Assembly: GCA_021817045.1 (NCBI GenBank)
Contig: JAKAWG010000003.1
Location: 1-64,000 of the forward strand
Length of the DNA: 64,000 nucleotides
Direction of reading: 5' to 3'
DNA from: Acidobacteriota bacterium
GTDB taxonomy: Bacteria > Acidobacteriota > Terriglobia > UBA7540
Shown: positions 34,667 through 63,026 of the stretch, in pieces
Layout of the letters: each line of letters opens with the position of its first letter
How positions within the stretch are numbered: position 1 is the stretch's first letter
Position numbers and translations under genes: made by a program
The notes under the pieces: model-generated
Told to the model about the DNA's origin: nothing
Database searches by the model: none
What the model saw: the letters and a program-made list of their open reading frames with translations, nothing else

Positions 34667-36859
34667 ATGGCCGACGTTTTCGCCGGCGCTGTGAAGGCCC
34701 AGCCTGCATCGGAACTTGAGCGCCACCGCGCCCTGCTTGAGATTGCTGAAGCGATCTCAGTTCATCGAGACCTGCCGGCGCTCTTCCACAGCCTGGCGGA
34801 TCTCCTCCACAAAGTCGTGCAATTCGACGCGATTTACCTCGTGCTCCACGACGAAGAGCGCCAGATGATGCGCCTGCACATTCTGGTGAGTGAAGACGAT
34901 ACGGCTTCCACTCCGCAGTTGGAGCTGCCGGTTGAAGATTCGCCGGGAGGCATGGTGTGGCAGACGCAGCAGCCGGTCATTTTTTCCGGGGAGGAAATGG
35001 TAGCTCGTTTCCCGCAGGTCAAGGGTGTGACGAGCCAACACCGTGTTCGGTCGGTGTGTATTCTACCCCTGAGCAGCGCGCACCGGCGGCTTGGGGCCAT
35101 CGGTTTCGCGAGCGCGCAGCCCGAGATTTACGACTTGGAAGATGTTACTTTTCTGGAACAGGCCGCGCGCCAAGTGGCGGTTGCTGTGGACAACGCGCTG
35201 AACGGAGCTCGCGCGCAAACCTATCAGCGGCAGCTTGCGCGGGAGCGGGACCGCCTTCAGGTGCTGCTCGAAATGACGAACGCCGTGGTGTCCACGCTGG
35301 ACCTGCGGGGATTGTTTCCGGTGATTTCCGCCTGCCTGCGCCGCGTGGTGAACCATGACTATGCGAGCCTCGCGCTCCTCGACGCCGACGGCCAGCACCT
35401 GCGCCTTTACGCGCTGGATTTCCCTGGCGGTAGGGGCTACGTGCAGGAGCAGATGGCGGGACGGGTGGATGAAATTCCTCCCGGCCGCGCCGTTCAATCT
35501 CACAAGCCGTATGTCATTCGCGCAGGCGAGGCCGGCTTTGGAATCTGCTCGGAAATTGCCAGCCTCCACAGGACCGAAGGTCTGAAGTGCGCCGTTTTCC
35601 TTCCGCTAATCAGCCGTGACCGTGTGCTTGGGACACTGAATGTCGCTAGCCGGCACGTCGATGCGTTTCCCGCTGCGGACATCGAACTGCTCACTTCCGC
35701 CGCCAGCCAGTTCGCCATCGCGGTCGAGAACGCGGTGGCTTATCGCGAGATTGCGGAACTGAAGGACAAGCTTGCGGAGGAAAAGCTATACCTCGAAGAT
35801 GAAATTCGCACGGAATACAACTTCGAAGAGATTATCGGCGAGAGCGTGGCGCTCAAGCGGGCGCTGAAAGACGTGGAAACCGTCGCGCCCACCGAATCCT
35901 CAGTCCTGGTTCTAGGCGAAACGGGCACAGGCAAAGAACTGATCGCGCGTGCCATTCACCAGCTTAGCCCGCGCAAGGAGAGGACGTTCGTCAAGATCAA
36001 CTGCGCCGCCATTCCCTCGGGGCTCCTGGAAAGTGAACTGTTCGGCCATGAGCGCGGCGCGTTCACGGGTGCGATCGCCCAGAAAGTCGGACGCTTCGAG
36101 CTGGCTCATCATGGCACGCTCTTCCTCGACGAGATTGGCGACATTCCCCTTGAATTACAGCCGAAGCTCCTGCGCGTCCTCCAGGAACACGAGTTTGAGC
36201 GGCTCGGAAGCACGAAGACCACGCAGGTGGACGTTCGGCTGGTTGCCGCAACCAATCAAGACCTTGCGCGCATGGTGGAGGAACGGCTCTTTCGCAGCGA
36301 CCTCTATTACCGTTTGAACGTCTTTCCCATTCAGGTCCCTCCGCTACGCGACCGCGCGAGTGATATTCCTCTCCTCGTGCGCTACTTTGCCCAGAAGTAC
36401 GCGCGGCGGATGAACAAACGGATTGAAACCGTCCCGGCCGAAGCCTTCGAAGCGCTGGTGAATTACTCCTGGCCAGGAAACGTGCGCGAGCTCGAAAACC
36501 TCGTCGAGCGAGCGGTCATCCTCACCCAGGGGTCGGTGCTCTATGTGCCTCTTGCCGAGCTGCAGTCTTCCGGGAGCCGTGCCGCAAGTGGCGTAGGCAT
36601 CTTGCCAGTGACCGGCCACGGGCGGGTCCTATTTCGAGACTCCGATGGGGTCCCTCGGACTCCAGCTATCGGAGACGCCAGTGCCACTGTTCCTCCCGTT
36701 CAAACGCTGGAAGAGGCCGAGCGCGATCACATCCTGCGCGTGCTTCGAGAATGTGATTGGGTAGTGGGCGGGCCGGGCGGCGCGGCGGTCCGTCTTGGGA
36801 TGAAGCGCACTACCTTGCAGTCCAAGATGCGTAAGCTTAATATTTCACGCCCGCAATAA
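34667..36859 (+). CDS. GAF-domain sigma-54-dependent transcriptional activator
   Basis: The 730-residue protein resembles FhlA-type activators. Two GAF domains (about 40-190 and 215-355) are followed by a coiled linker, an AAA+ sigma-54 interaction domain (about 395-625) and a Fis-type helix-turn-helix (about 685-728). The Walker A is GETGTGKELIARAIH (near 415), the sigma-54 contact loop is GAFTGA (near 463) and the arginine-finger region YRLNVFPIQVPPLRDR is present. Absence of a receiver domain indicates ligand control through the GAF domains. One candidate target in this window is the PEP-CTERM gene with a sigma-54 promoter (47751-47765), but no binding site was found to prove that. Confidence 0.9.
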   Translation: MADVFAGAVKAQPASELERHRALLEIAEAISVHRDLPALFHSLADLLHKVVQFDAIYLVLHDEERQMMRLHILVSEDDTASTPQLELPVEDSPGGMVWQTQQPVIFSGEEMVARFPQVKGVTSQHRVRSVCILPLSSAHRRLGAIGFASAQPEIYDLEDVTFLEQAARQVAVAVDNALNGARAQTYQRQLARERDRLQVLLEMTNAVVSTLDLRGLFPVISACLRRVVNHDYASLALLDADGQHLRLYALDFPGGRGYVQEQMAGRVDEIPPGRAVQSHKPYVIRAGEAGFGICSEIASLHRTEGLKCAVFLPLISRDRVLGTLNVASRHVDAFPAADIELLTSAASQFAIAVENAVAYREIAELKDKLAEEKLYLEDEIRTEYNFEEIIGESVALKRALKDVETVAPTESSVLVLGETGTGKELIARAIHQLSPRKERTFVKINCAAIPSGLLESELFGHERGAFTGAIAQKVGRFELAHHGTLFLDEIGDIPLELQPKLLRVLQEHEFERLGSTKTTQVDVRLVAATNQDLARMVEERLFRSDLYYRLNVFPIQVPPLRDRASDIPLLVRYFAQKYARRMNKRIETVPAEAFEALVNYSWPGNVRELENLVERAVILTQGSVLYVPLAELQSSGSRAASGVGILPVTGHGRVLFRDSDGVPRTPAIGDASATVPPVQTLEEAERDHILRVLRECDWVVGGPGGAAVRLGMKRTTLQSKMRKLNISRPQ

Positions 36860-36912
36860 TTCGCACTTCACTCTTTACAAGGAACGATGGCCCGAAGTCT
36901 TAAGGCGCGCCA

Positions 36913-36936
36913 GCATTTCGGCCTGTGCCGAAATGC
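36913..36936 (+). terminator. Terminator-like hairpin after the sigma-54 activator gene
   Basis: GCATTTCGGC (36913-36922) and GCCGAAATGC (36927-36936) form a perfect 10-bp stem with a CTGT loop, 54 bases after the stop. No T tract follows. Confidence 0.45.
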
Positions 36937-37081
36937 CGTCTGCCGCTCATTCCCATGAGGCGGCGGCCGAGACCGGTCCGTAATTCTAACTTGTTCAGAA
37001 TCTGCGCTCTAGGAGGAAACGTCCGCTTCTCGGCCGTGTGGAAACAGATGTGCTTTTCTATTGGCTGAGGAACAGCGGACC

Positions 37082-37381
37082 GTGCTTAAGATAACAGTTG
37101 AAAAGACGGGCAGGCCCGTGCGGGTTAAGCTGGACGGTAGCCTTTCCGGACCCTGGGTGGCCGAGCTTGAAAAGAGCTGGGTCGGGTTGGGTTCCGGCGG
37201 CCGCAAGGGTTGGTTGGTCGTGGACTTGATCGACGTGACTCACGTTGACGCCCAAGGCCGCGAATTGCTGAGGCGAATGCATCGGGGCGGAGCCGAGCTT
37301 ATAGGTTGTGGCTTGATGACCCGAGAAATCATCCAACAAATTCAGCTTGCCAGCCAGGGCTGCGAGCCCGAAAAGAGCTAG
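37082..37381 (+). CDS. STAS-like domain protein
   Basis: The protein of about 99 residues has a STAS-like strand/helix pattern: VLKITVEKTGRPVRVKLDGS for the first two strands, GWLVVDLIDVTHVDAQGREL for the strand and helix that carries the phospho-site in anti-anti-sigma factors (here D-A instead of D-S/T), and a final MTREIIQQIQLA helix. GAGGAA lies 9 bases before this GTG; a TTG at 37061 would add 7 residues. The lack of Ser/Thr in the key position suggests it is not a switchable SpoIIAA-type protein. It could regulate a partner by binding alone. Confidence 0.55.
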   Translation: MLKITVEKTGRPVRVKLDGSLSGPWVAELEKSWVGLGSGGRKGWLVVDLIDVTHVDAQGRELLRRMHRGGAELIGCGLMTREIIQQIQLASQGCEPEKS

Positions 37382-37394
37382 CCGGATTTGAAAA

Positions 37395-37525
37395 ACGGGT
37401 CGGAGCCCGTCATCCTGACGCCGAGCTTTGCGTGGTGGAGGAATCCGCTTGTGGTGCTTTGAAGTGCCGCAACACGAGATTCTTTGTTGTCGCAACGCAC
37501 TCTATCAGGACGCCTCGGAATGACC
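37395..37525. repeat. Dispersed CATCCTGACG...GGAATGAC intergenic repeat
   Basis: Outer sequences GTCATCCTGACG (about 37408) and CGCCTCGGAATGAC (about 37511) are loosely inverted, with GAGGAATCCGCTT inside. It separates the STAS gene from the efflux operon and is related to 43790-43860 and 58465-58605. Confidence 0.45.
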
Positions 37526-37609
37526 TAGCCCAGGCGGTACCTACTTCGGTTACGGGACGCTTTGCGCCGAGGGGAAAGTTATTATGTCGAAAGGGAGGCA
37601 GAGAGATTC

Positions 37610-39118
37610 ATGAGTTCTAAATGCCACGTAGCGCATGCGCTGAATGGTCTGATGCTCACGATCACGTTGGTAGGAATCACTCCTCATGTTGTCGCGCAGA
37701 CCCAGCCGGCGGCTACGGGCACGCTGAGCTATGAATCTCCGATGTCGGGGTCAGCGGCGGCGACGGGAGCGAGCGCGCTCTCCGCAATCACCGCGCCGCA
37801 GAGTCCCTTTCTTGGCAGCATTCCGTCGGGAAAAGCCACATCCGGCGTTGTGCCGGTTTCGCTAAAAGACGCCATCGAGCGCGGTCTGCGCTACAACCTG
37901 GGTTTGCTGCTCGACGAGCAGTCCACGCGGGCGCAACGTGGAGCGCGCTGGCAGGCCTTGAGCCACCTTCTGCCGCACTTGACGACGGGCACCAGCGAGA
38001 CCGATCAGCAAATTAACCTGGAGGCGCTCGGTTTTCCGCCCAGCGCTGCCCAACAGTTTCACTTCCCGATCGTCGTTGGGCCGTTCAGCACATTTGACGC
38101 GCGCGCGTTTCTTTCCGCGCCGCTTATCGACCTTCAGCACTGGCGCAGCGAGCACGCCGCGTCAGATGACGTGCGAGCGTCGGAATACACGGAGCGGGAT
38201 GCGCGCGACCTGGTGGTGCTCGTGGTCGGCAACGAATACCTGGTGGCGAATGCCGGGGTGGCGCGGATTAAGGCTGTCCAGGCGGAGGTACAAACGGCGC
38301 AGGCTCTCTATCGACAGGCGGTGGACCGCTTTCATGCCGGGCTGAGCCCGGAGATTGACATGCTTCGCGCCCATGTGGAGTTGCAGACGCGGCAGCAGCA
38401 GTTGATTGCCGCGCGAAACGACTACGCCACGGAAAAGCTCAATCTGGCGCGAGTGATTGGCTTGCCCTCGGGGCAGCGTTTCACGCTGACCACGCCTACG
38501 CCCTACGAGCCGCTAACGGGCGTGACGCTTGAGAAGTCGCTGACGGACGCCTATGAGAACCGTCCTGATTACAAGGCGGCGCTCGCGCAAGTGCGCGCTG
38601 CCCAGGCGCAGCGACGTGCGGTGCTTGCCGAGCGGTTGCCCTCGGTGACCTTGAACAGCAACTTTGGCGACATCGGATTGACGCCCGGCAATTCGCACGA
38701 AACGTTCCTGGTTTCAGGAACGCTGCACATTCCCGTTTTTCAGGGGGGCAGGGTGCGAGGCGAACTGTTACAGGCGGATGCGAATCTAAGACAAAAAGAG
38801 GAACAGCTTTCCAATCTGAAGGCGCAGATCGATTACGACGTCCGCACGGCGCTGATGAACCTTCAGACGGCAGCTGATCAGGTTCGCGTGGCGCGCAGCA
38901 ACATTATCCTCGCGCAGCAGACGCTGACGCAGGCCAGGGATCGGTTTGCCGCTGGCGTGGCAGACAACATTGAGGTCGTCGAGGCGCAGGAAGCAGTGGC
39001 CAGCGCCAACGATGCTTATATCTCAAGCCTTTATCAGCACAATCTCGCCAAGGTTGCCTTGGCGCGCGCGGTTGGCGTGGCCGAGCGGGCCGTGCTGCAA
39101 TATCTGGGAGGAAAATAG
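37610..39118 (+). CDS. TolC-family outer membrane efflux protein
   Basis: This 502-residue protein forms the outer-membrane channel of a tripartite pump. A signal peptide (about 1-30, ending HVVAQ) and a Ser/Ala-rich linker are followed by the duplicated OEP repeat. Long amphipathic helices (QAEVQTAQALYRQAVDRFHA, and later NIILAQQTLTQARDRFAAG) and VSGTLHIPVFQGGRVRGELL are characteristic. The end, NDAYISSLYQHNLAKVALAR, is a TolC hallmark. GGGAGG precedes the ATG; upstream in-frame starts lack a signal peptide. The EmrA-like gene starts 3 bases after the stop. Confidence 0.9.
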   Translation: MSSKCHVAHALNGLMLTITLVGITPHVVAQTQPAATGTLSYESPMSGSAAATGASALSAITAPQSPFLGSIPSGKATSGVVPVSLKDAIERGLRYNLGLLLDEQSTRAQRGARWQALSHLLPHLTTGTSETDQQINLEALGFPPSAAQQFHFPIVVGPFSTFDARAFLSAPLIDLQHWRSEHAASDDVRASEYTERDARDLVVLVVGNEYLVANAGVARIKAVQAEVQTAQALYRQAVDRFHAGLSPEIDMLRAHVELQTRQQQLIAARNDYATEKLNLARVIGLPSGQRFTLTTPTPYEPLTGVTLEKSLTDAYENRPDYKAALAQVRAAQAQRRAVLAERLPSVTLNSNFGDIGLTPGNSHETFLVSGTLHIPVFQGGRVRGELLQADANLRQKEEQLSNLKAQIDYDVRTALMNLQTAADQVRVARSNIILAQQTLTQARDRFAAGVADNIEVVEAQEAVASANDAYISSLYQHNLAKVALARAVGVAERAVLQYLGGK

Positions 39119-39121
39119 ACC

Positions 39122-40390
39122 ATGGCGCAAAGAACCGATCTCGAATCAGGCGTGCGGCCGGAAGAAGCTGAAGCCCTTCTCGCGGCTAACGGAGCGGGCT
39201 CCGGGACAAACGAAAACGAAGGACCACGGACCGCGCCGAGGAGCAAGTTGCCCATCATCCTTGCTGTCGTCGGCTTGGCCGTAGCTGCCTTGCTCGTCTG
39301 GAGGCACTACGCGAATTGGGTTTCCACCGACGACGCCGAAATCGAGGGTCACATTGATCCAATCAGCGCGCGAGTCAGCGGCCATGTCGTTCGCGTGTTG
39401 GTGGACAACACGCAATTTGTGAACAAGGGAACCGTGCTGGCGCAGCTTGACCCGACGGACTACCAAGTGGCCGTCGCGCACGCTCAAGCGCGGCTTGCCA
39501 ACGCCCGCGCGGCCGCCGAGGCTGCGGAGGTGGGCGTTCCCATCACTTCGATCAATACGCTCAGCCAGGTACACTCGGCCAGCGCGGGAGTTCAAAGCGC
39601 GCAGGCCGGCATTGAAGCTGCTGAGAAGCAGTTTCAGGCGGCTCAAGCCCGTCTTCTGGCCGCCGAGGCCGATAATGTGAAAGCCCAGTTGGACCTCAAG
39701 CGTTATCAGGAGCTTGTCGGTAAAGCGGAAATTTCGCGGCAGCAGTATGACCAAGCCGTGGCCGCAGCCAAATCCAGCGCGGCCGCGGTGACGGCAGACG
39801 AAGCAAGTGCAGCGGCTGCCGAACAACAGGTGACCCAAGCACGCAGCCGGCTGGCGGACGCCGAAGCCAAGCTGCGGTTTGCCCAAACGCGGCCTCAGCA
39901 ACTACGCGAAATTCGCGCCCGCGCGGATGCAGCGATGGCGGCGGTCCAGGAAGCGGATGCGACTTTGCACCAGGCCGAACTCAACCTTCAGTACACCACC
40001 ATCGTGGCACCAATCAGCGGCATCATCGGCAACCGCACGGTGGTGGATGGCCAGAACGTTCAGCCCGGCCAGGCTCTGATGGCCATCGTGCCTACGGAAG
40101 ATATTTGGGTGACGGCCAATTTCAAAGAGACCGCGCTTCATCACATGCGAGTCGGGCAGCCGGTGAAGATTCACGTGGACGCTTACGGCCGCGATTATAC
40201 CGGTCACCTAATCGGAATCGCCGGCGCCACAGGAGTGCAGTTCAGCCTGCTACCGCCGGAAAACGCCACAGGCAACTACGTCAAGGTGGTCCAACGCGTT
40301 CCGGTTCGGATCGTCTTCGACAAGGGTCAGGACCCGAACCACCTGCTGAAAGTGGGTCTGTCCGTCGAGCCGCACGTCAAGATCAATTGA
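39122..40390 (+). CDS. EmrA-like membrane fusion protein (HlyD family)
   Basis: The 422-residue periplasmic adaptor links an inner-membrane EmrB-type permease to TolC. One transmembrane helix (about 42-60, LPIILAVVGLAVAALLVW) is followed by the lipoyl half-motif WVSTDDAEIEGHIDPISARV. A long alpha-hairpin rich in Ala, Gln and Glu (about 115-285) comes next, then TIVAPISGIIGNRTVVDGQN and a beta-barrel with FSLLPPENATGNYVKVVQRV. The start is just after the TolC-like gene with GGGAGGAAAA in front. Its final part is the reference for the relic at 11870-12083. Confidence 0.92.
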   Translation: MAQRTDLESGVRPEEAEALLAANGAGSGTNENEGPRTAPRSKLPIILAVVGLAVAALLVWRHYANWVSTDDAEIEGHIDPISARVSGHVVRVLVDNTQFVNKGTVLAQLDPTDYQVAVAHAQARLANARAAAEAAEVGVPITSINTLSQVHSASAGVQSAQAGIEAAEKQFQAAQARLLAAEADNVKAQLDLKRYQELVGKAEISRQQYDQAVAAAKSSAAAVTADEASAAAAEQQVTQARSRLADAEAKLRFAQTRPQQLREIRARADAAMAAVQEADATLHQAELNLQYTTIVAPISGIIGNRTVVDGQNVQPGQALMAIVPTEDIWVTANFKETALHHMRVGQPVKIHVDAYGRDYTGHLIGIAGATGVQFSLLPPENATGNYVKVVQRVPVRIVFDKGQDPNHLLKVGLSVEPHVKIN

Positions 40391-40435
40391 ACCGCCTGCG
40401 GCTGCAAAGTCACCATGGGCATTTTGAAAAAGTAA

Positions 40436-40473
40436 GGCCCTGTCCCTCCAGGGTCCTCAATTTCACTTTTTTA
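40436..40473 (+). terminator. Weak hairpin with T tract between the emrA- and emrB-like genes
   Basis: GGCCCTG and CAGGGTC form a 7-bp stem containing one G-U pair, and a run of six T follows 12 bases after the stem. It could attenuate read-through into the permease genes; the distance to the T run makes it doubtful. Confidence 0.25.
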
Positions 40474-40499
40474 TTAGGCGCACAGACGAAGGAGATGTC

Positions 40500-42080
40500 T
40501 TGAGTCCCGAGCCCCACAGCGAAGCCGCCCCCAGTGTCCACCCGTGGCTGATCGCTGCCGTCGTGGCGCTGGCCGCGTTCATGGAGGTCCTCGACACCAG
40601 CATCGCGAACGTCGCCTTACCTCACATCGCCGGCAGCCTGTCCGCGAGTGTTGACGAGAGTACCTGGGTGCTGACTTCCTATCTTGTCTCGAACGCGATT
40701 GTGCTTCCCGCAAGCGGCTGGATTGCGGGAAGGGTTGGACGCAAACGGTTCTTCATGCTGTGTATCGTCCTCTTCACGACGAGCTCGTTTCTGTGCGGTA
40801 TCGCGCCGACCCTCGGCGCGATCATCCTGTTCCGCGTCATACAGGGCGCAGGTGGCGGAGGTTTGCAACCCATGGCGCAAGCGATCCTCGCAGATACGTT
40901 CCAGCCTGAGCTGCTCGGCCAGGCCTTCGCCATCTACGGCGTCACGACAGTCGTGGCGCCCGTGATTGGACCCACACTGGGCGGGTGGATTACGGATAAT
41001 TATTCCTGGCGCTGGATTTTCTTTATCAATATTCCCGTCGGCGTGCTGGCGTTGCTGCTCATTTCCCGCCTCGTAGAAGATCCTCCTTATTTTCACAAAC
41101 TCGCAAAGGCGGGCGTCAAGATCGATTTCATCGGAATGGGATTACTGGCGCTCGGCGTCGGCTGTTTGCAAGTGATGCTTGACAAGGGGCAGGAAGACGA
41201 CTGGTTCGGCTCGCACTTCATTGTAACGTTGGCGGTGCTTTGTGCGATCTCGCTGGTCACGCTGGCGATCTGGGAGTGGCGGAACAAGAATCCCTTGATC
41301 GATGTCCACCTTTTCAAGAACTTCAATTTTCTCAGCGCGAATCTCATGATGTTTGTGCTGGGCGTCCTGCTTTTCAGCAGTCTCGTCATGCTGCCTCTGT
41401 TTTTGCAAACGCTTATGGGCTACACGGCGGAAAGCGCCGGCATCGTGCTTTCCTTCGGCGCGCTGGTCGTGCTGGTGGAATTGCCCATGATCGGAAAACT
41501 CACAACCATGGTGCAGGCGCGCCGCCTGGTGGCTTTCGGCTGGCTCCTGGTGGCGCTATCCATGTTCTATACCACGCGCCAGCTTGACCTCGAAGTCAGC
41601 TTCAAATCGATGGCCGTCCTGCGGATCATCCAATCGCTGGGCTTTCCTTTCCTGTTTATCCCGTTGACGATGGCCGCGTATTTCGGTCTGCCGCCGGAGA
41701 AGAACAACAGCATTGCCGGCATGATGAACTTCATGCGGAACATTGGGAGCAGCGTCGGCACTTCCATGGTGACGACGCTCATCGCCCGGAGAGCGCAGTT
41801 CCATCAACAGGTGCTGGTGGTCCATGCGAACGCCACGAGTAACCTTTTCAATGGCGCCCTTCGTGGTCTCTCGCAGACTCTGCTGCGCGCGGGCTTGAGC
41901 GCGACCGCAGCACTTTCTCAGGCTTACGGACGCATTTACCAGGCTCTGATAGGCCAAGCCACCACGCTGGCCTATATCGACACGTTTCACGTCCTGGCGG
42001 CAGGATCGCTCGCGATGTTCGTGCTTTCTTTTGTGCTGAAGAAGAACAAACCCGGACGGGGAAGCGTCACGCCGGCCTAA
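40500..42080 (+). CDS. DHA2-family (EmrB/QacA-like) drug efflux permease, first copy
   Basis: This 526-residue MFS permease has 14 predicted hydrophobic segments. ALAAFMEVLDTSIANVALPH is the motif of DHA2 helix 1, followed by STWVLTSYLVSNAIVLPASG and GRVGRKRFFML (loop 2-3 motif A), and FRVIQGAGGGGLQPMAQAIL. It exports hydrophobic compounds using the proton gradient with the EmrA- and TolC-like partners upstream. TTG is the start, with AAGGAGA in front. A close paralogue follows after 6 bases. Its C-terminal sequence is the match for the relic at 12865-13040. Confidence 0.92.
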   Translation: MSPEPHSEAAPSVHPWLIAAVVALAAFMEVLDTSIANVALPHIAGSLSASVDESTWVLTSYLVSNAIVLPASGWIAGRVGRKRFFMLCIVLFTTSSFLCGIAPTLGAIILFRVIQGAGGGGLQPMAQAILADTFQPELLGQAFAIYGVTTVVAPVIGPTLGGWITDNYSWRWIFFINIPVGVLALLLISRLVEDPPYFHKLAKAGVKIDFIGMGLLALGVGCLQVMLDKGQEDDWFGSHFIVTLAVLCAISLVTLAIWEWRNKNPLIDVHLFKNFNFLSANLMMFVLGVLLFSSLVMLPLFLQTLMGYTAESAGIVLSFGALVVLVELPMIGKLTTMVQARRLVAFGWLLVALSMFYTTRQLDLEVSFKSMAVLRIIQSLGFPFLFIPLTMAAYFGLPPEKNNSIAGMMNFMRNIGSSVGTSMVTTLIARRAQFHQQVLVVHANATSNLFNGALRGLSQTLLRAGLSATAALSQAYGRIYQALIGQATTLAYIDTFHVLAAGSLAMFVLSFVLKKNKPGRGSVTPA

Positions 42081-42086
42081 TTCGAC

Positions 42087-43685
42087 ATGGCAGAATCCGC
42101 AAACGCACAAATCGCCGCCGCGATGGATTGGAAACCGGCGATCAACCCGTGGATGATCGCCGGCACCGTGATGCTGGCGACGTTCATGGAAGTGCTGGAT
42201 ACGAGCATCGCCAACGTAGCTCTGCCTCACATCGCCGGCAGTCTCTCGGCCAGCGTTGACGAAAGCACCTGGGTGCTGACGTCCTATCTGGTCTCAAATG
42301 CCATCGTCCTGCCGCTTACGGGATGGTTCTCGTCGCTGTTTGGCCGCAAGCGCTTTTTCATGGTGTGCGTGGCCATCTTCACAACGAGCTCGTTTCTCTG
42401 TGGTCTGGCACCGACCCTTCCAGCGCTGGTGACATTGCGGGTCATTCAGGGAGCAGGCGGCGGCGGGCTGCAACCCGTCTCGCAAGCCATCCTGGTGGAG
42501 AGCTTCGAACGGAAACAGCAGGGGATGGCCATGGCGGTCTACGGGATGGGCGTTGTGGTCGCGCCTATCGTGGGCCCGACGCTGGGCGGCTGGATCACGG
42601 ACAACTTTTCGTGGAGGTGGATTTTTTTCATTAACATCCCGATTGGGATCCTTGCGCTGCTGATGACGTCCACGCTCATCAGCGATCCTCTCTACCTCGT
42701 GCGAAAGCACCTGAGTGAGATGAGCATCGACTTCATGGGGCTTGGCTTGCTCAGCCTCGGCCTGGGGTTCCTGCAAGTCATGCTCGACAAAGGGCAGCGG
42801 GATGACTGGTTCGGCTCACACTTTATCGTGGTTTGCGCGATGCTTGCGGCGATTGGGCTGGTCGGAGTGGTCGTCTGGGAGTTGCGGCAAAAAGAGCCCG
42901 TCGTTGACTTGCGCCTGCTCAAAGACAAGAATTTTGCCGTCTCCACATTTACCATGTTTGCCCTGGGCGTGGTGCTTTATGGAACCACTGTATTATTGCC
43001 GGTTCTCGTTCAGACCCTGCTCGGTTACACGGCAGAACTCGCCGGCCTCGTGCTCTCGCCCGGCGCGGTGATCACGATGCTAGCCATGCCGCTGGTGGGT
43101 TGGCTGCTTGGCCGATACGAGCCGCGGTGGCTTGTCGTCCTCGGATTGGGGATCCTTGCTACAGGGATGTTTCAGCTTTCAGGGATTAATTTGGATGTGA
43201 GCTTCTGGATTCTGGTGGGAATCTGGTGCATCTCCCGGCTTGGGCTTGCCTTTCTCTTCGTGCCCGTCAACGTAATGGCGTTCTACTTCATTCCGAGGGA
43301 AAAAACGAACAACGCCACGGGACTCATCAACGTGGCGCGCAATATCGGCGGCAGCGTAGGTATTTCCCTGGTCACAACCATGCAAAGCCGGCTCGCCCAG
43401 GCGCACCAGAACATCCTCGTTAGCCACCTTACGCCCTATAGTTCTGCTTACCGCTCGATGATGGCAGGCGCGTCCGCGATGTTCCAAGCGGCGGGTTCCA
43501 GCGCTACGGAAGCGTCCGCTCGCGCTCGCGGCCTTATTTACAGTGAGTTGTTACGTCAGTCGGCGATACTTTCTTACGTCGATATTTTCTGGCTACTCGC
43601 CATGACGTGCCTCGCCATGATCCCGCTGATGTTTCTAATGAAGAAGGTGCGGCCGGGCCAAGGTGCTGCTGTAACCGCTCACTGA
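42087..43685 (+). CDS. DHA2-family (EmrB/QacA-like) drug efflux permease, second copy
   Basis: At 532 residues it parallels its neighbour almost block for block: FMEVLDTSIANVALPHIAGS, WVLTSYLVSNAIVLPLTGW, FGRKRFFMV, FRVIQ-type RVIQGAGGGGLQPVSQAIL and WRWIFFINIPIGILAL. The N-termini are nearly identical while the C-terminal halves diverge (ALGVVLYGTTVLLPVLVQTL; PREKTNNATGLINVARNIGG), suggesting duplication followed by a change in substrate. It starts at ATG 42087, 6 bases after the first permease stop. Two permeases behind one adaptor may give a pump with alternative or mixed subunits. Confidence 0.92.
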   Translation: MAESANAQIAAAMDWKPAINPWMIAGTVMLATFMEVLDTSIANVALPHIAGSLSASVDESTWVLTSYLVSNAIVLPLTGWFSSLFGRKRFFMVCVAIFTTSSFLCGLAPTLPALVTLRVIQGAGGGGLQPVSQAILVESFERKQQGMAMAVYGMGVVVAPIVGPTLGGWITDNFSWRWIFFINIPIGILALLMTSTLISDPLYLVRKHLSEMSIDFMGLGLLSLGLGFLQVMLDKGQRDDWFGSHFIVVCAMLAAIGLVGVVVWELRQKEPVVDLRLLKDKNFAVSTFTMFALGVVLYGTTVLLPVLVQTLLGYTAELAGLVLSPGAVITMLAMPLVGWLLGRYEPRWLVVLGLGILATGMFQLSGINLDVSFWILVGIWCISRLGLAFLFVPVNVMAFYFIPREKTNNATGLINVARNIGGSVGISLVTTMQSRLAQAHQNILVSHLTPYSSAYRSMMAGASAMFQAAGSSATEASARARGLIYSELLRQSAILSYVDIFWLLAMTCLAMIPLMFLMKKVRPGQGAAVTAH

Positions 43686-46658: not shown

Positions 46659-47537
46659 TCACTTGTGAGCGGGTGGCGGAGGCAGGGAGGCCAATCGGAG
46701 TTTGATGGTCTCAAATTGCGGCGTATCGGTGATCCAGTGCTTGGGCGGGCCCAGCAGAGGGACTTCCCGGTCTACGGCCTGGATGCGGTTTCCGGGGTTG
46801 GGATGGTCCGAGAAGAACTGGAGTGTCTGCTGAGGATAGCGCTTTTGGATGATCTGAAAAAACTGAGCCATGGCGTAGGGATCGTATCCCGCTTGATAGA
46901 GGATGTAGGTGCCCACCTGGTCCGCTTGCGCTTCCATGCCTCGGGAATTGTGTAAGAAGATGGAGTTCACGCCAAAGCCCAGCGCCGCCTGGCCAAGTGC
47001 CCCTGCCACAGACCCGCTTGAGCCGAGAATCGCGCTGACGATGGAAAGCGGGGCCCGTGCCAGCGTCATTTCAGAGGCTCGGTGCGTGCCGTGGCGCATT
47101 ACGACGTGACCGATTTCGTGAGCCATCACGCCCGCAAGTTGCGCCTCGTCCTTTGCGGCCTGAATCGTGCCTCGGTTAATGAAAATGAAGCCTCCGGGTA
47201 GTGCAAAAGCGTTAATATCCGAGGTATTAACAACGTGGAAATTCCATACATAGACTGGCTGGTTGTCGGGTGCAAACGAGGCCAGCTTGCGGCCGAGCCG
47301 GTTGATGTAGCCTTCAACCACGGAGTTACGCAGCATGGGCATCTGCTTTTCCACCTGCAAGGCGCTTTTGCGCCCCTCTGCCACATCCTGCTGCGGGGTA
47401 TATAAATTAAAGCCTGGCTTGAAGGTGAGGCGGCCAATCGCGTACATCGCGGCGGGCAAGATCAAGCCGAGCAGCAGCGCGACCAGCAGACCGCGAATCC
47501 GTCTCGCCTTCCCAAAATTGCTGTTCCGGACTTTCAT
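46659..47537 (-). CDS. M48-family zinc metalloprotease
   Basis: The 292-residue peptidase has an N-terminal membrane helix (about 16-37), a propeptide-like QQDVAEGRKSALQVEKQMPM and the zinc motif GVMAHEIGHVVMRHGTHR (His140, Glu141, His144). The third ligand is in RGMEAQADQVG (Glu about 204) and the domain ends FFSDHPNPGNRIQAVDREV. The pattern matches YfgC/BepA and LoiP-type proteases that survey the outer membrane. Soluble TPR repeats of BepA are absent, so it is a short form. The start is the ATG after GGAAGAAACTTG; a TTG three bases earlier is possible. Confidence 0.88.
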   Translation of the reverse strand: MKVRNSNFGKARRIRGLLVALLLGLILPAAMYAIGRLTFKPGFNLYTPQQDVAEGRKSALQVEKQMPMLRNSVVEGYINRLGRKLASFAPDNQPVYVWNFHVVNTSDINAFALPGGFIFINRGTIQAAKDEAQLAGVMAHEIGHVVMRHGTHRASEMTLARAPLSIVSAILGSSGSVAGALGQAALGFGVNSIFLHNSRGMEAQADQVGTYILYQAGYDPYAMAQFFQIIQKRYPQQTLQFFSDHPNPGNRIQAVDREVPLLGPPKHWITDTPQFETIKLRLASLPPPPAHK

Positions 47538-47750
47538 CAAGTTTCTTCCGCTTTCACTGACACCATATTGGTCGAGCGGAGCCCCGGCAAGTAAACTCGA
47601 CTAAGTCAGCCCAGCGGCCAGTCAGAGGGTGGAAAACTGTTTTCCCATTGAGGAAGCATTTTTCCACATTTTAACACTATTTTGAACGTTTCACGGTCAG
47701 TAAACCCAAATTAAGTCATTGTAAATAAATTGCTTAGAGGAAAACGCATT

Positions 47751-47765
47751 TGGCATTCGGCTTGC
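47751..47765 (+). promoter_or_regulatory. Sigma-54-type promoter upstream of the PEP-CTERM gene
   Basis: TGGCATTCGGCTTGC agrees with the -24/-12 consensus (TGGCAC-N5-TTGC) with correct spacing and only one differing base. It lies 65 bases before the ATG at 47831. An A/T-rich stretch (GTAAATAAATTGCTTAGAGG, 47721-47740) precedes it. A sigma-54 activator gene is in the window at 34667-36859. Confidence 0.65.
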
Positions 47766-47830
47766 GCAATATCTGTGCGTGGCGATGGGCGGTGGCATTG
47801 CGAAGAAATGTAGTGCAAGGGGGTACTTCG

Positions 47831-48373
47831 ATGCTAAAGAGGGGTTTGCTTTTTGTGGTTGTTGTGGTTTTCTTCTCCGCGATGGCACTTTCAGAAGGGC
47901 TTGATTTGAGCGCACAGTCGTGTGCGCCGGGAGACCTTTCTGCGTGGTGCCTTCAGACTTTCAATTCGCAGGGGGCGGTAACTACATCGACCTCAGATGG
48001 GGTTCAGGGGCGCATGAGTGAATCGGATACGTTTGGCCTGATGTTCGAATCGGCCTCGCATGTGGGGCAGAACCAGGTCAAGACGTATAACCTCGATTAC
48101 GTTTTACGCTTTAAGGCGAACGATTCCAATGGATTTGGTAATTTGACCAATGTGGGCGACCCGCCGGGAAACAACGGATTCACGGTCTCGGGCGACCAGG
48201 GCCCGACCACTTACATACGCGATTCAGGTGGCAGTGATCCCTCGAATAGCGTTGTTTCAAACGGAGACCCGCCAGCCGGTCCCGTACCGGAGCCGGGATC
48301 TCTCGTGCTCCTTGGGAGCGGTCTCCTCGGCGTGGCTGTTCTCGTGCGGCGTAAGCGCCGGCTGGCACACTAA
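47831..48373 (+). CDS. PEP-CTERM sorting-domain protein
   Basis: The 180-residue secreted protein has an N-terminal signal (MLKRGLLFVVVVVFFSAMAL) and ends with the exosortase signal VPEPGSLVLLGSGLLGVAV followed by a basic RRKRR. The middle domain, with only two Cys, has no recognised family and contains FGNLTNVGDPPGNNGF and TTYIRDSGGSDPS. Exosortase cleaves after the PEP motif and retains or releases the protein at the envelope, often in exopolysaccharide-producing bacteria. No exosortase gene is in this window. The preceding sigma-54 promoter suggests stress- or growth-phase-controlled expression. Confidence 0.85.
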   Translation: MLKRGLLFVVVVVFFSAMALSEGLDLSAQSCAPGDLSAWCLQTFNSQGAVTTSTSDGVQGRMSESDTFGLMFESASHVGQNQVKTYNLDYVLRFKANDSNGFGNLTNVGDPPGNNGFTVSGDQGPTTYIRDSGGSDPSNSVVSNGDPPAGPVPEPGSLVLLGSGLLGVAVLVRRKRRLAH

Positions 48374-48460
48374 CCATCACTCTCTTCCGCTTCTCCCGAC
48401 GGAAGGGGAAACCGTGTGAGCTGACGGGCAGGCGCATGGTCACTCCGCAGCGACTGAGGC

Positions 48461-49678
48461 CTACTCGTCTGCTTCTGCGAAATCTCTCCCGTGCCGCTCC
48501 CATCCGAGGTTGATGACCACGATGGACGCGGCGAGAGCCACCGCTTCAAATCCTGCCAGTGCCCACCCGTAGCCGATCAAGCCACGCAGGGCGTACTCGA
48601 TGATGTCTGTGGGCGCGGCAAGCAGAATCCCCAACTGGTAAGCCAGTCCGGGCAGCAAGCTGCGCGCGGAGGCCGGCGCGAGCTCAATGAGATGCGCCGG
48701 TACGATGCCCCACGCCCCCTGTACGCCAATCTGCATAATGAAGGACGCGATGGCCAGTTCCACCGCGGAACCGCCAAACGCCCACAGGGGAAGAACGAGC
48801 AACGACAGGGCGAACGCCCAAGTCATGCCGGCTCGCCGCCCGGCCCGTTGCGAAATCATTCCAAACGCAATCGACCCCAAAATTGCGCCGCAATTATAAA
48901 GGATGGCCGTCACCGAGACTGCGGAGGGCGAGAGATGGTGCGCGGTGCCGAGGAAGTCCGGATAGAGGTCTTGCGAGCCGTGGGAAACGAGCATCATGAG
49001 GGTCATGAGCACGACGAGGTAGCCGAACACTTTCCAGGAATGGGAGATGGTGCGCACAATCGCGGTGGAATTGGAAGCGCGGTGGCGGCGCCACGCCTCA
49101 GGTTCGGGCATCCGGGCGCAAGCGGCGAGTACGACCAGCGCCGGCACGCTTCCCACCCAGAACATGGCCCGCCAGCCCCAGGCGGGCAAGACGAAGCGCG
49201 CCGCAACGGCTGCCAGCAGGTATCCCACGGAATATCCGCATTGGAGAAACCCGGAGAAGAATCCTCGCCACCGAACCGGCACCGTCTCCATGACGAGCGA
49301 TGCGCCCACGCCCCATTCGCCTCCCATGCCGATGCCAAACAGAGCGCGCAGGAACAGGAAAACGCCGTAGTCGGGAGCGAAGCCACATAGAACTTCGACG
49401 ACGGTGAAAAACACGACGTTTCCTATCAATGCACCACGCCTTCCGAAAAGATCCGAAAGAGCGCCGAACACGAGGGCGCCCACCGGGCGCATGGCCAGCG
49501 TCACGGTGAGCGTCAGGACGATGGCGGCTTTGTCTACTGAAAACTGTCGTGCCAGGGCTTCGACCAGGAAAACGACGGCGAAGTAGTCAAATCCGTCGAG
49601 CGCCCAGCCAAGGAAGCCCGCGGTTACGCCCAGCCAGCGGTTTGGGTGGTCAGCTGAGCTGCAAATCGAATTTGGCAT
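48461..49678 (-). CDS. MFS transporter of the metabolite:H+ symporter type
   Basis: The protein of about 405 residues has 12 predicted helices. GVTAGFLGWALDGFDYFAVV, GALSDLFGRRGALI (motif A) and LRALFGIGMGGEWGVGASLV are typical of the sialate/aromatic-acid MHS or AAHS branch of the MFS. The start at 49678 fits the family; the longer frame would add 177 unrelated residues. It is divergent from an OYE-type oxidoreductase gene (49794), so the pair may form an uptake-and-reduction unit for an organic acid or an enone. Confidence 0.88.
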   Translation of the reverse strand: MPNSICSSADHPNRWLGVTAGFLGWALDGFDYFAVVFLVEALARQFSVDKAAIVLTLTVTLAMRPVGALVFGALSDLFGRRGALIGNVVFFTVVEVLCGFAPDYGVFLFLRALFGIGMGGEWGVGASLVMETVPVRWRGFFSGFLQCGYSVGYLLAAVAARFVLPAWGWRAMFWVGSVPALVVLAACARMPEPEAWRRHRASNSTAIVRTISHSWKVFGYLVVLMTLMMLVSHGSQDLYPDFLGTAHHLSPSAVSVTAILYNCGAILGSIAFGMISQRAGRRAGMTWAFALSLLVLPLWAFGGSAVELAIASFIMQIGVQGAWGIVPAHLIELAPASARSLLPGLAYQLGILLAAPTDIIEYALRGLIGYGWALAGFEAVALAASIVVINLGWERHGRDFAEADE

Positions 49679-60824: not shown

Positions 60825-63026
60825 TCAGTAATGAAATCTCCATGTGAGCTGCACGTAAAGTTCGCGCGGGTCGACGACGTGCGTTCCGCCAAACGTGTTG
60901 CTCGTGTCCAGCAGGAAGCGCGCGTTCGTCAGGTTGACCGCGTTCAGGCTTAACGACCAAGCTTCGCCGAAATCTTTTCCGAGTGCAAGGCCAACGGTCG
61001 AATGCGGTGGCAGGTGAGCAGGTCCGTTGCCGTTCAGAAATCCCGAGCCAAAGCTGTAAACCGCCGAAGCCCACGTTTTGCGAGGCAAGGTAAACTGCAG
61101 GACCGTGTTCACGGTGTTGCGCTGATCGTGGTCGAGGAAGAAGTAACTCGTCGGCGCGAACTCAATAAGGCCGCCGGTAATCGGTCCTAGTCCTTCCGCA
61201 ACTTGGTTCGAGTAAACGATGTTCAACGATCCATGGTTGAAGATTTCCGGCGAGCGAAGCGTCACCTCCGTTCCCGAGATCAGCGCGGCAAGATCGGTGA
61301 GTGGAAGGAAAATGTCCGAATTGCCTACCTCATCATGATCGAGAAAGTTGCTCGCGCTGGTCCGGAAATGATCGACGTTCAGAAACCAATGGCGCCAGGG
61401 AATGGTGAGCCCAGCGTCCCATTGCTTGTCACGCTCGCCGGGCAGAGGAATGAAACCGAAACCTTGATTGACCGCAAAATTCAGGAGCGGCCCGGTGACC
61501 GTGTCCAGTGGCGGCGGCTGGTAATAGTCGGAGTAATATCCGTGTAGAACCCAGTGAAGCCGGGGAATGCGCAGCGCTGCGCCAAGCCGCGGGTCGGCGA
61601 CATCTTCGCTCAGGAGGCCGCCGTAGTGCGTCAAGCGAACGCCGCCGTTGAGGGTCAGCCAGGAAGAAGCCTGGTAGCGGTCGCCGAAAAAGAGCGCTTC
61701 GTCATTTCCCCACGGGCGAAAATCCTGCTGGAGAACTCGCGTGCCCGGATTTGCAGCCAATCCGAAAAACGTGTTGTCGTGCTGCCCCCACACTTCGAGG
61801 CCTCCTTGGAAATTGTTCTTTCCCAAAGGTACGGTCAGGTTTGTAAGCGCTCCCACGTAGCTTGAGCGGCGATTGTCGTTGAGAATGAAAGGCGTGTCGC
61901 CGGGTCCCCCGATGTAATCCGCGCGATTGAAATGGAAGAACGGCGAGAGGGTTAATGTTGTCCCGTTAGGCGAGCTGTGCGCCCACGTCATGCCCACCAG
62001 GTCACCGCGCTCCACGTCCAGATCGCGAATGCCGGCAACTTGCTGCTCGGGCGTGTTCGGAATCTGATAATGATTGCCCCGCAGAGACACGAGAAAGCGG
62101 AACTGGTTTTCCGGCGATTGGTTAAAGAGCACCGATCCAAAGCCGCCAAGCCCGCTTTCCTGATCGTGGAGAACGGTTGGAGTGGGGGTGCTCAAGCCGA
62201 GATCGGAGCGATTGCCATTGACGCTCGCGTAGTAAGACAGGCGCTGCGTATGGCTGCCAAAACTTAGCAGGTCATCGGTCTGATTAAAGTTGCCGCCGGA
62301 CAGGATCAATTCGCCTTCGTTGTTGCGGTTGAAGCCAGAAGGAGTGACCGCATTGAAAAATCCATACGTCCGGTCACCATACTCGGAAGAGTAGCCGCCG
62401 GTTTGCACCTGGAGCGAGTTTACGTTCTTCGGGTCAATGCCCGGGCCGACGTTGCTCGCGATATTTGTGTTGAGATCCGGAATCCCGTCAATAAACCAGC
62501 TTTCCTGATGCCCGCCGCGCACGTGGAGCATGTCGTGGACCATGTATGCTCCAGGAACGAAATCCGTGATCATCGACATGCTGTTCGAGAGGTCGGCGCC
62601 GGGAGTGTGATTGATTTGTTTGCGCGTGACGAGCGTCTGCGTGGTGGATGTCTGCTCGTTCAGCAGCGCGGGCGCGCCGGAGACCGTCACCGCTTGCTTT
62701 GCTATCCGAATCTTCATCCAGAGATGTAAAACTGGTCCAAGGCCAGGTTGCACCGTCACAGACACTTTGATCGGCGCGAAGCCCGGCGCAGCGGCGGAAA
62801 TTATATACGCGCCGGGGGGAACGTCGCGAAATTGGAATTCGCCGCTCGCATTGGATTTTTGCGTTTTCGCCCACACGCCGCTTTGCGCGGACAGTGTGAC
62901 CATGGCGCCGGCGATGGGGCGGTGCTGAGGGTCGTGAACAACGCCGCGCACCGTGCCAGCCGTTTCCGCTCCGTACAAGACGGCGGCAATGGCTAAAAGC
63001 GTGACAATTAGGAAGGCGCTTCGCAT
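60825..63026 (-). CDS. TonB-dependent receptor with carboxypeptidase-regulatory-like domain
   Basis: The 733-residue outer-membrane receptor has a signal (MRSAFLIVTLLAIAAVLYGA), a regulatory-like beta-sandwich (about 22-105, GTVRGVVHDPQHRPIAGAMV) and a plug with SWFIDGIPDLNTN. A beta-barrel follows to the terminal aromatic ELYVQLTWRFHY. It is much shorter than Oar-like receptors (about 1000 residues) and lacks an obvious TonB-box. The barrel has DFGEAWSLSLNAVNLTN, usual for siderophore or metal receptors. Neighbours are a Cys-rich secreted protein upstream (114 bases) and a coupled NIPSNAP gene downstream. Confidence 0.88.
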   Translation of the reverse strand: MRSAFLIVTLLAIAAVLYGAETAGTVRGVVHDPQHRPIAGAMVTLSAQSGVWAKTQKSNASGEFQFRDVPPGAYIISAAAPGFAPIKVSVTVQPGLGPVLHLWMKIRIAKQAVTVSGAPALLNEQTSTTQTLVTRKQINHTPGADLSNSMSMITDFVPGAYMVHDMLHVRGGHQESWFIDGIPDLNTNIASNVGPGIDPKNVNSLQVQTGGYSSEYGDRTYGFFNAVTPSGFNRNNEGELILSGGNFNQTDDLLSFGSHTQRLSYYASVNGNRSDLGLSTPTPTVLHDQESGLGGFGSVLFNQSPENQFRFLVSLRGNHYQIPNTPEQQVAGIRDLDVERGDLVGMTWAHSSPNGTTLTLSPFFHFNRADYIGGPGDTPFILNDNRRSSYVGALTNLTVPLGKNNFQGGLEVWGQHDNTFFGLAANPGTRVLQQDFRPWGNDEALFFGDRYQASSWLTLNGGVRLTHYGGLLSEDVADPRLGAALRIPRLHWVLHGYYSDYYQPPPLDTVTGPLLNFAVNQGFGFIPLPGERDKQWDAGLTIPWRHWFLNVDHFRTSASNFLDHDEVGNSDIFLPLTDLAALISGTEVTLRSPEIFNHGSLNIVYSNQVAEGLGPITGGLIEFAPTSYFFLDHDQRNTVNTVLQFTLPRKTWASAVYSFGSGFLNGNGPAHLPPHSTVGLALGKDFGEAWSLSLNAVNLTNARFLLDTSNTFGGTHVVDPRELYVQLTWRFHY

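Follow-up and report, generated by a model that had tools for sequence, protein, structure and literature searches.

A predicted sigma-54 promoter and tandem upstream palindromes in front of an acidobacterial PEP-CTERM gene

The question raised by the locus described here is how a gene for a PEP-CTERM protein is switched on in an acidobacterium. The paper defining this system, published in 2006, left regulation outside the Proteobacteria open (PMC1569441). The gene lies in a stretch of 64,000 nucleotides, which we call the window (Acidobacteriota bacterium, assembly GCA_021817045.1, contig JAKAWG010000003.1, positions 1 to 64,000). A first-pass annotation had placed a sigma-54 promoter, TGGCATTCGGCTTGC, in front of this gene and had suggested control of the PrsR type, pointing to a GAF-GAF sigma-54 activator encoded 11 kb away. 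We think it probable that the site is the sigma-54 promoter of a PEP-CTERM gene belonging to an acidobacterial PEP-CTERM/exosortase regulon, which would have its own promoter form, its own enhancer and an activator with a SYKALLYK-type helix–turn–helix (HTH), here likely the one encoded on contig C165.

The PEP-CTERM gene and its upstream region

The features of the window that are needed for the argument are as follows.

34667..36859, + strand: gene for a GAF-GAF-AAA-Fis sigma-54 activator, FhlA-like (Pfam, NCBIfam)
47630..47647, no strand: palindromic upstream activator site 1 (predicted), TGGAAAACTGTTTTCCCA; held-out enhancer matrix, 10.5 bits on the + strand and 8.9 on the - strand
47650..47667, no strand: palindromic upstream activator site 2 (predicted), GAGGAAGCATTTTTCCAC; held-out enhancer matrix, 8.3 bits
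47751..47765, + strand: predicted sigma-54 (-24/-12) promoter element TGGCATTCGGCTTGC; lineage matrix and geometry of the class
47777, + strand: predicted transcription start, about 12 nt past the -12 GC, placed by sigma-54 geometry
47818..47823, + strand: ribosome binding site AGGGGG, from the sequence
47831..48373, + strand: gene for a PEP-CTERM protein of 180 aa, with a signal peptide, a body of unknown fold and a C-terminal PEP-CTERM region (Pfam, NCBIfam)
48284..48358, + strand: PEP-CTERM sorting signal VPEPGSLVLLGSGLLGVAVLVRRKRR (TIGR02595, E 1.4e-5, 29 bits)

The open reading frame is that of a PEP-CTERM protein according to two models, PF07589 (29.7 bits, cut-off 20.7) and TIGR02595 (25.3 bits, cut-off 16). 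The C-terminal PEP motif, hydrophobic stretch and basic tail are all present by the Pfam and NCBIfam models, and the signal peptide was assigned by eye from the N-terminal sequence. Upstream of the gene is a gap of 290 bp, which it has in common with a divergently oriented M48 peptidase gene (46659–47540, minus strand). Within this gap the letters, strand, coordinates and distance first reported for the promoter site were found to be correct when the sequence was re-read: the GG (47752–47753) and the GC (47764–47765) are ten bases apart (GG-N10-GC), and 65 nt separate the site from the ATG at 47831. Neither a sigma-70-type promoter nor a terminator was found in 47540–48480, and the leader RNA gave no sign of structure (z -0.07). 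Orthologue footprinting gave no result: the protein has matches in 20 of 101 genomes, its own included, and in the others the match is confined to the C-terminal sorting region and the residues next to it.

In the genome from which the window derives (94% complete; 5.25 Mb in 174 contigs), 13 PEP-CTERM genes lie above cut-off and RpoN is encoded (C19:23514-24908, 414.6 bits, over cut-off). The genome has three exosortase matches, two over cut-off and one below, and all of them are on other contigs (C72, C122 and C18), which confirms the earlier remark that the window itself holds none. An exosortase of XrtA grade (195 bits or more), as seen in most relatives, was not found in this genome, where the best match reached 142.5 bits; this may reflect a loss or an assembly gap.

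Sigma-54 sites and enhancers of the family

Taken alone, the bare motif TGGCATTCGGCTTGC is unremarkable and at chance level. The window holds 8 one-mismatch matches where 9.5 are expected, the exact bare pattern occurs 31 times genome-wide as against 16 times for the reversed pattern, and the site takes only rank 4 in the window when scored with a generic matrix based on the sigma-54 consensus. Since the motif by itself was not above chance, we ran a test on the upstream regions of PEP-CTERM genes and widened it to the genomes of the family. Searched with TIGR02595 at E 0.002, the 39 family genomes yielded 134 matches, spread over 22 genomes; the genome of the window accounts for 9. From the 125 matches in relatives 101 were tested, 24 being left out as long frames, contig-end fragments or matches in one-match genomes; a further 15 were dropped for want of a start, a signal-peptide-like start or sufficient upstream sequence, so that 86 were kept. 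Together with 13 own genes (12 of the 13 above cut-off, plus L014, which is below it; L013, over cut-off, has no start and was omitted) these make up 99 upstream regions from 19 genomes, which are independent of each other at the level of blastn (98 clusters).

With the generic matrix, a score of at least 10 was reached in 30 of the 99 regions, as compared with 2 when they were reverse-complemented, 2 when they were mirrored and 4.2 expected. The lineage matrix refined from this starting point (promoter form tTTGG[CA]N5[AG]N[TG]TGCT) reached at least 10 in 42 regions when each genome was left out in turn, versus 4, 4 and 1 in the controls. When training began from the same matrix but used control sequences, self-consistent sites emerged too, in 34, 32 and 18 of 99 at the same threshold, and therefore only the held-out and the model-free numbers carry weight. 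In the model-free count, TTGG-N9-TGC occurs within 200 nt in 29 of the 99 regions, while each other spacing from 4 to 15 gave 0–3 and spacing 9 gave 1 in each of two controls. An intact TGG-N9-TGC core is missing in 4 of the 42 positives, and 57 regions score below 10 with the held-out refined matrix. The window site scores 16.3 bits and takes rank 1 in the window with a lineage matrix trained without its own genome, and it is this comparison across genomes that makes it, to our minds, a convincing candidate for a sigma-54 site.

Scanning the own PEP-CTERM genes, which had been proposed as a check on the promoter, gave an intact site (held-out score of at least 10) in 6 of the 13 examined, namely the window gene (L001), L003, L004, L005, L006 and L012. 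In a seventh, L008 (C72, gene 62744–62812, minus strand), the -12 part is broken: a near-perfect lineage promoter reads TTCC instead of TTGC and has an enhancer score of 7.8, and the promoter has possibly decayed. Upstream of L006 (also L045; C160:13186-13204) two strong sigma-54-like sites, one per strand, overlie each other (TGGCAAGACACGTGCCA and TGGCACGTGTCTTGCCA) at a distance of 35 nt from the PEP-CTERM gene. Of 25 exact genome-wide matches to the refined pattern, 3 (on C54, C93 and C160) precede PEP-CTERM genes by their coordinates and most do not.

Upstream of 38 site-bearing promoters the dyad GAA-N9-ACA stands out, and it extends to a near-palindromic tG[AC]AAnnnnTTTGCACAt; the resulting enhancer consensus is about TG[AC]AAnnnnTTTGCACA and usually lies 60–120 nt upstream. 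Leaving out one genome at a time, the enhancer matrix reached at least 8 for 27 of the 38 promoters, versus 7 in reversed sequence and an expectation of 4.9. As befits a palindrome, 25 reached this score on the reverse complement, and among PEP-CTERM upstream regions without a promoter site 3 of 51 did so. In the window, two copies stand in tandem, the second offset from the first by 20 bp, or about two helical turns, and each is self-complementary at 12 of 18 positions. As motif matches they lie 84–121 nt upstream of the sigma-54 site, with gaps to the promoter of 104 and 84 nt. Across the family these gaps cluster near 70, 92 and 113 nt, and those of the window fall between the clusters. A helical phase of 10.5 bp is not clear (p ~0.06, all sites). 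A periodicity of 20–22 bp is stronger, with nominal p values of 6e-4 to 6e-5 after several periods had been tried, and is only suggestive.

Within the own genome the enhancer is clear for two of the six site-bearing genes (the window gene and L012), weaker for L003, L004 and L006, and absent for L005. When both elements were required, with matrices trained without the own genome, a sigma-54 score of at least 13 and an enhancer score of at least 8 were found together only at 47751 in 750,317 bases of own DNA searched on both strands, and nowhere in the mirrored control; lowering the thresholds to 12 and 8 gave 2 real combinations versus 1 mirrored. In further acidobacterial loci, we scored PEP-CTERM genes that adjoin SYKALLYK-type activators (one of 19 skipped, 18 testable). 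A promoter score of at least 12 was found in 16 of these 18, and in 0 of 18 controls. Without two genes that belong to the training set the count is 14 of 16; among these, the sites of L418 and L423 are identical. As a raw count, an enhancer of at least 8 accompanies 8 of these 14 promoters.

Candidate activators and alternative explanations

The suggestion of PrsR-type control was not supported. In 39 family genomes the PrsR model (TIGR02915) reached its cut-off in none, the best match having 453.6 bits versus 502.6 required, and the PrsK model (TIGR02916) found none at E 1e-40 in a search whose own controls were silent as well. As positive controls on a known desulfovibrio plasmid, the PrsR model gave 585 bits and the PrsK model 407 bits on the known prsK. 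PrsT is over its cut-off of 312.2 bits in relatives (347 and 354 bits), with the own copy below it at 261.

In relatives, activators with the HTH NRK..A..L.ISYKALLYKIRQ are encoded near site-bearing PEP-CTERM genes, beside exosortase, EpsI and PrsT. They come in three types: response regulators accompanied by a kinase, proteins that have no receiver, and proteins lacking GAFTGA, encoded next to the exosortase. A profile of the SYKALLYK-type HTH has strong matches (60 bits or more) in 27 of the 39 genomes. Set against the presence of PEP-CTERM genes (E 0.002), 21 genomes have both, 6 the activator only, 1 PEP-CTERM only and 11 neither (Fisher p 7e-5, ignoring kinship and with the 60-bit line set after seeing the data). 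Two genomes with strong HTH matches lack promoter sites (G008, 0/4; G027, 0/5), and G014 has PEP-CTERM genes and a weak HTH match. Among the best 80 GTDB loci listed with this HTH, an exosortase is found in 49, a PrsT-like gene in 37 and a PEP-CTERM gene in 17; nearly all are titled as Acidobacteria, Acidobacteriota or Terriglobia lineages, and other phylum names appear for three (L369, L381 and L445).

In some activators from exosortase loci, about 330 aa long (L297:2580-3572, L298:15533-16594, L299:11834-12841, L303:13189-14193, L353:5691-6674 and L354:1613-2587), both the AAA region and the SYKALLYK HTH region are retained; that of L297 is visibly without the GAFTGA loop, and the others have no GAFTGA match. 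This hints that such regulators cannot themselves open a sigma-54 promoter. One locus, L353 (G031 C56:10000-29999), is compact and a good model: it encodes an exosortase, an EpsI-like protein, PrsT, EPS export functions and three activators, and its PEP-CTERM gene has the promoter (L427). On a Paludibaculum plasmid an exosortase is present and no activator is listed in the stretch.

In the own genome, the best activator of the exosortase type is C165:1042-2145, a receiver-less protein of 367 aa with a GSFTGA loop and a somewhat different HTH (70 bits, ISYRSLLYKM). It is the first gene of an operon that matches XrtA-type EPS models best, all just below cut-off: 160.6 of 180 bits for the export gene, 261 of 312 for the TPR gene (PrsT) and 258.7 of 278.85 for the chain-length gene. 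No site that would indicate autoregulation was found upstream of this operon. A second activator of this type (L347:225-1219, C37) is split over two overlapping frames and apparently frameshifted, which appears to be either a true lesion or an assembly error.

The GAF-GAF activator to which the first-pass annotation had drawn attention is indeed encoded 11 kb away, and its proposed part in controlling the PEP-CTERM promoter found no support. Its closest family is FhlA (592 bits, below that family's cut-off), its HTH is unlike that of the exosortase-linked activators, and by its reading frames the gene stands directly before a TolC/HlyD/MFS-like operon. The stretch 34667–43685 reads as the GAF-GAF gene followed by TolC-like, HlyD-like and two MFS drug exporter frames, and at 37039 the generic matrix gives a weak sigma-54-like site of 8.3 bits. 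The GAF-GAF protein is probably not involved. Because C165:1042-2145 joins an exosortase-type HTH to an XrtA-type EPS operon, and the GAF-GAF protein is FhlA-like with another HTH, we regard the former as the most likely cognate activator. Elsewhere in the genome (L247:4724-10376, C24), genes for a histidine kinase and for an NtrC-type regulator, the latter with a different HTH, come within about 5 kb after a PEP-CTERM gene that has a sigma-54 site.

Three other explanations have to be weighed against the preferred one. The promoter may be real and sigma-54-dependent and yet answer to another activator, such as the FhlA-like GAF-GAF protein or the NtrC-type regulator on C24. The genome has no shortage of them, with 27 matches to the PrsR model, most with an AAA domain, and one candidate lies 11 kb from the promoter, another, as a kinase/NtrC pair, within about 5 kb of the site-bearing gene L003. 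The HTHs of these candidates differ from the exosortase-linked family, the GAF-GAF gene has its efflux-like neighbours, and among the activators found it is the SYKALLYK family that recurs in exosortase loci, so that we consider this alternative unlikely. A diverged PrsR, too distant for the model and inherited as part of an ordinary PrsK/PrsR regulon of the proteobacterial type, would fit the shared layout of enhancer, spacer, sigma-54 site and about 70 nt to the start (PMC1569441) as well as the PrsT matches over cut-off in relatives. It is very improbable in view of the PrsR and PrsK results (0/39 each), of the HTH of an over-cut-off PrsR (SRPTFYDLLRK, not SYKALLYKIRQ) and of a TGTCGG-N8-ACA-like box, derived from one desulfovibrio plasmid, that is present in 0 of 99 regions.

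It could also be argued that a GC-rich genome often yields TGGCAY-N5-TTGC and that TGGCATTCGGCTTGC merely happens to precede a gene, and the bare-motif counts and generic rank given above agree with this. The family-wide spacing test, the held-out matrices, the upstream enhancers and the 16 of 18 further promoters speak against it; we give a coincidence at this site very little credence, and a chance origin appears unlikely for the class of sites as a whole.

The preferred reading is thus that of a sigma-54 promoter in an acidobacterial regulon, and the earlier proposal of such a promoter for the PEP-CTERM gene is supported by the intact sites of the own genes and by the presence of RpoN. Promoter geometry and enrichment, the enhancer motif, the linkage of activator and exosortase and the lack of a recognisable PrsR or PrsK are directly supported. 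According to this model, RpoN polymerase would wait in a closed state at the -24/-12 promoter of the PEP-CTERM gene, whose product is a secreted surface protein. The enhancer-binding protein, which has the HTH given above and comes from an exosortase/EPS locus (here most likely C165:1042-2145), would bind the palindromes, loop over, hydrolyse ATP and open the promoter, and surface proteins would be made together with the exosortase and exopolysaccharide machinery. From sequence we infer the binding of the activator to the enhancer, the looping, the transcription start and the biological timing.

More tentatively, and with somewhat more doubt than confidence, the regulon may extend across the phylum as an acidobacterial sigma-54 exosortase/PEP-CTERM regulon served by the three types of activator, which differ from PrsR in their DNA-binding part, and in which the GAFTGA-less type could be an antagonist or a co-binding partner. 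If this were true, the enhancer/sigma-54/PEP-CTERM architecture would have arisen on at least two occasions, each time with other activators and other boxes.

Comparison with known systems

A literature search, with most subscription journals and all bioRxiv preprints outside its reach, found no paper on sigma-54 control of acidobacterial PEP-CTERM genes. The promoter design described here is common to many acidobacterial surface-protein genes and apparently run by a regulator unlike the one known in other bacteria. Acidobacteriota would thus have a second sigma-54 circuit, apparently not orthologous to the first, which suggests that a link between the sorting of surface proteins and sigma-54 has been favoured repeatedly, and the circuit offers a testable promoter and enhancer code for finding genes that acidobacteria express together with exopolysaccharide.

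For Proteobacteria, a PrsK/PrsR/sigma-54 layout of PEP-CTERM genes was predicted in 2006, with cis-element motifs that, among the species discussed there, were shared only by the proteobacterial members (Haft et al., PMC1569441). Experimental data come from pepA of Aquincola tertiaricarbonis, which has a -24/-12 promoter (TGGCAC, CTGCTT) mapped by primer extension and needs RpoN1 for transcription (PMC9850573), and from DVUA0057 of Desulfovibrio vulgaris, a sigma-54 response regulator for which five predicted PEP-CTERM targets were enriched in DAP-chip (PMC3333781). The acidobacterial genes resemble pepA in the -24/-12 promoter of a PEP-CTERM gene, although A. tertiaricarbonis, unlike the acidobacterial case, is a proteobacterium with PrsK and PrsR (PMC9850573). 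They differ from the desulfovibrio system too: the PrsR-grade regulator of the related N. vulgaris plasmid (585 bits) has another HTH, SRPTFYDLLRK versus the acidobacterial SYKALLYKIRQ, and TGTCGG-N8-ACA boxes, defined from one desulfovibrio plasmid, occur in 2 of its 3 PEP-CTERM upstream regions and in none of the 99 acidobacterial ones. Conversely, the acidobacterial enhancer matrix does not reach 5 bits in any of these three plasmid regions.

Like the regulon of Haft et al. (PMC1569441), the acidobacterial one has individual PEP-CTERM genes, each preceded by an enhancer, a spacer and, some 70 nt upstream of the start, a -24/-12 element; a sigma-54 activator is encoded in the exosortase/EPS locus, and relatives have PrsT. 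It differs in that PrsK was not detected and PrsR stayed below cut-off in 39 genomes, and in its activator HTH and its enhancer, the latter as compared with the box of one desulfovibrio plasmid. Motif 1 of the PrsK/PrsR regulon is a 17-nt enhancer that ends in TTTACA (PMC1569441). The acidobacterial regulon would therefore work like the PrsR regulon and, by the tests made, is not a member of it.
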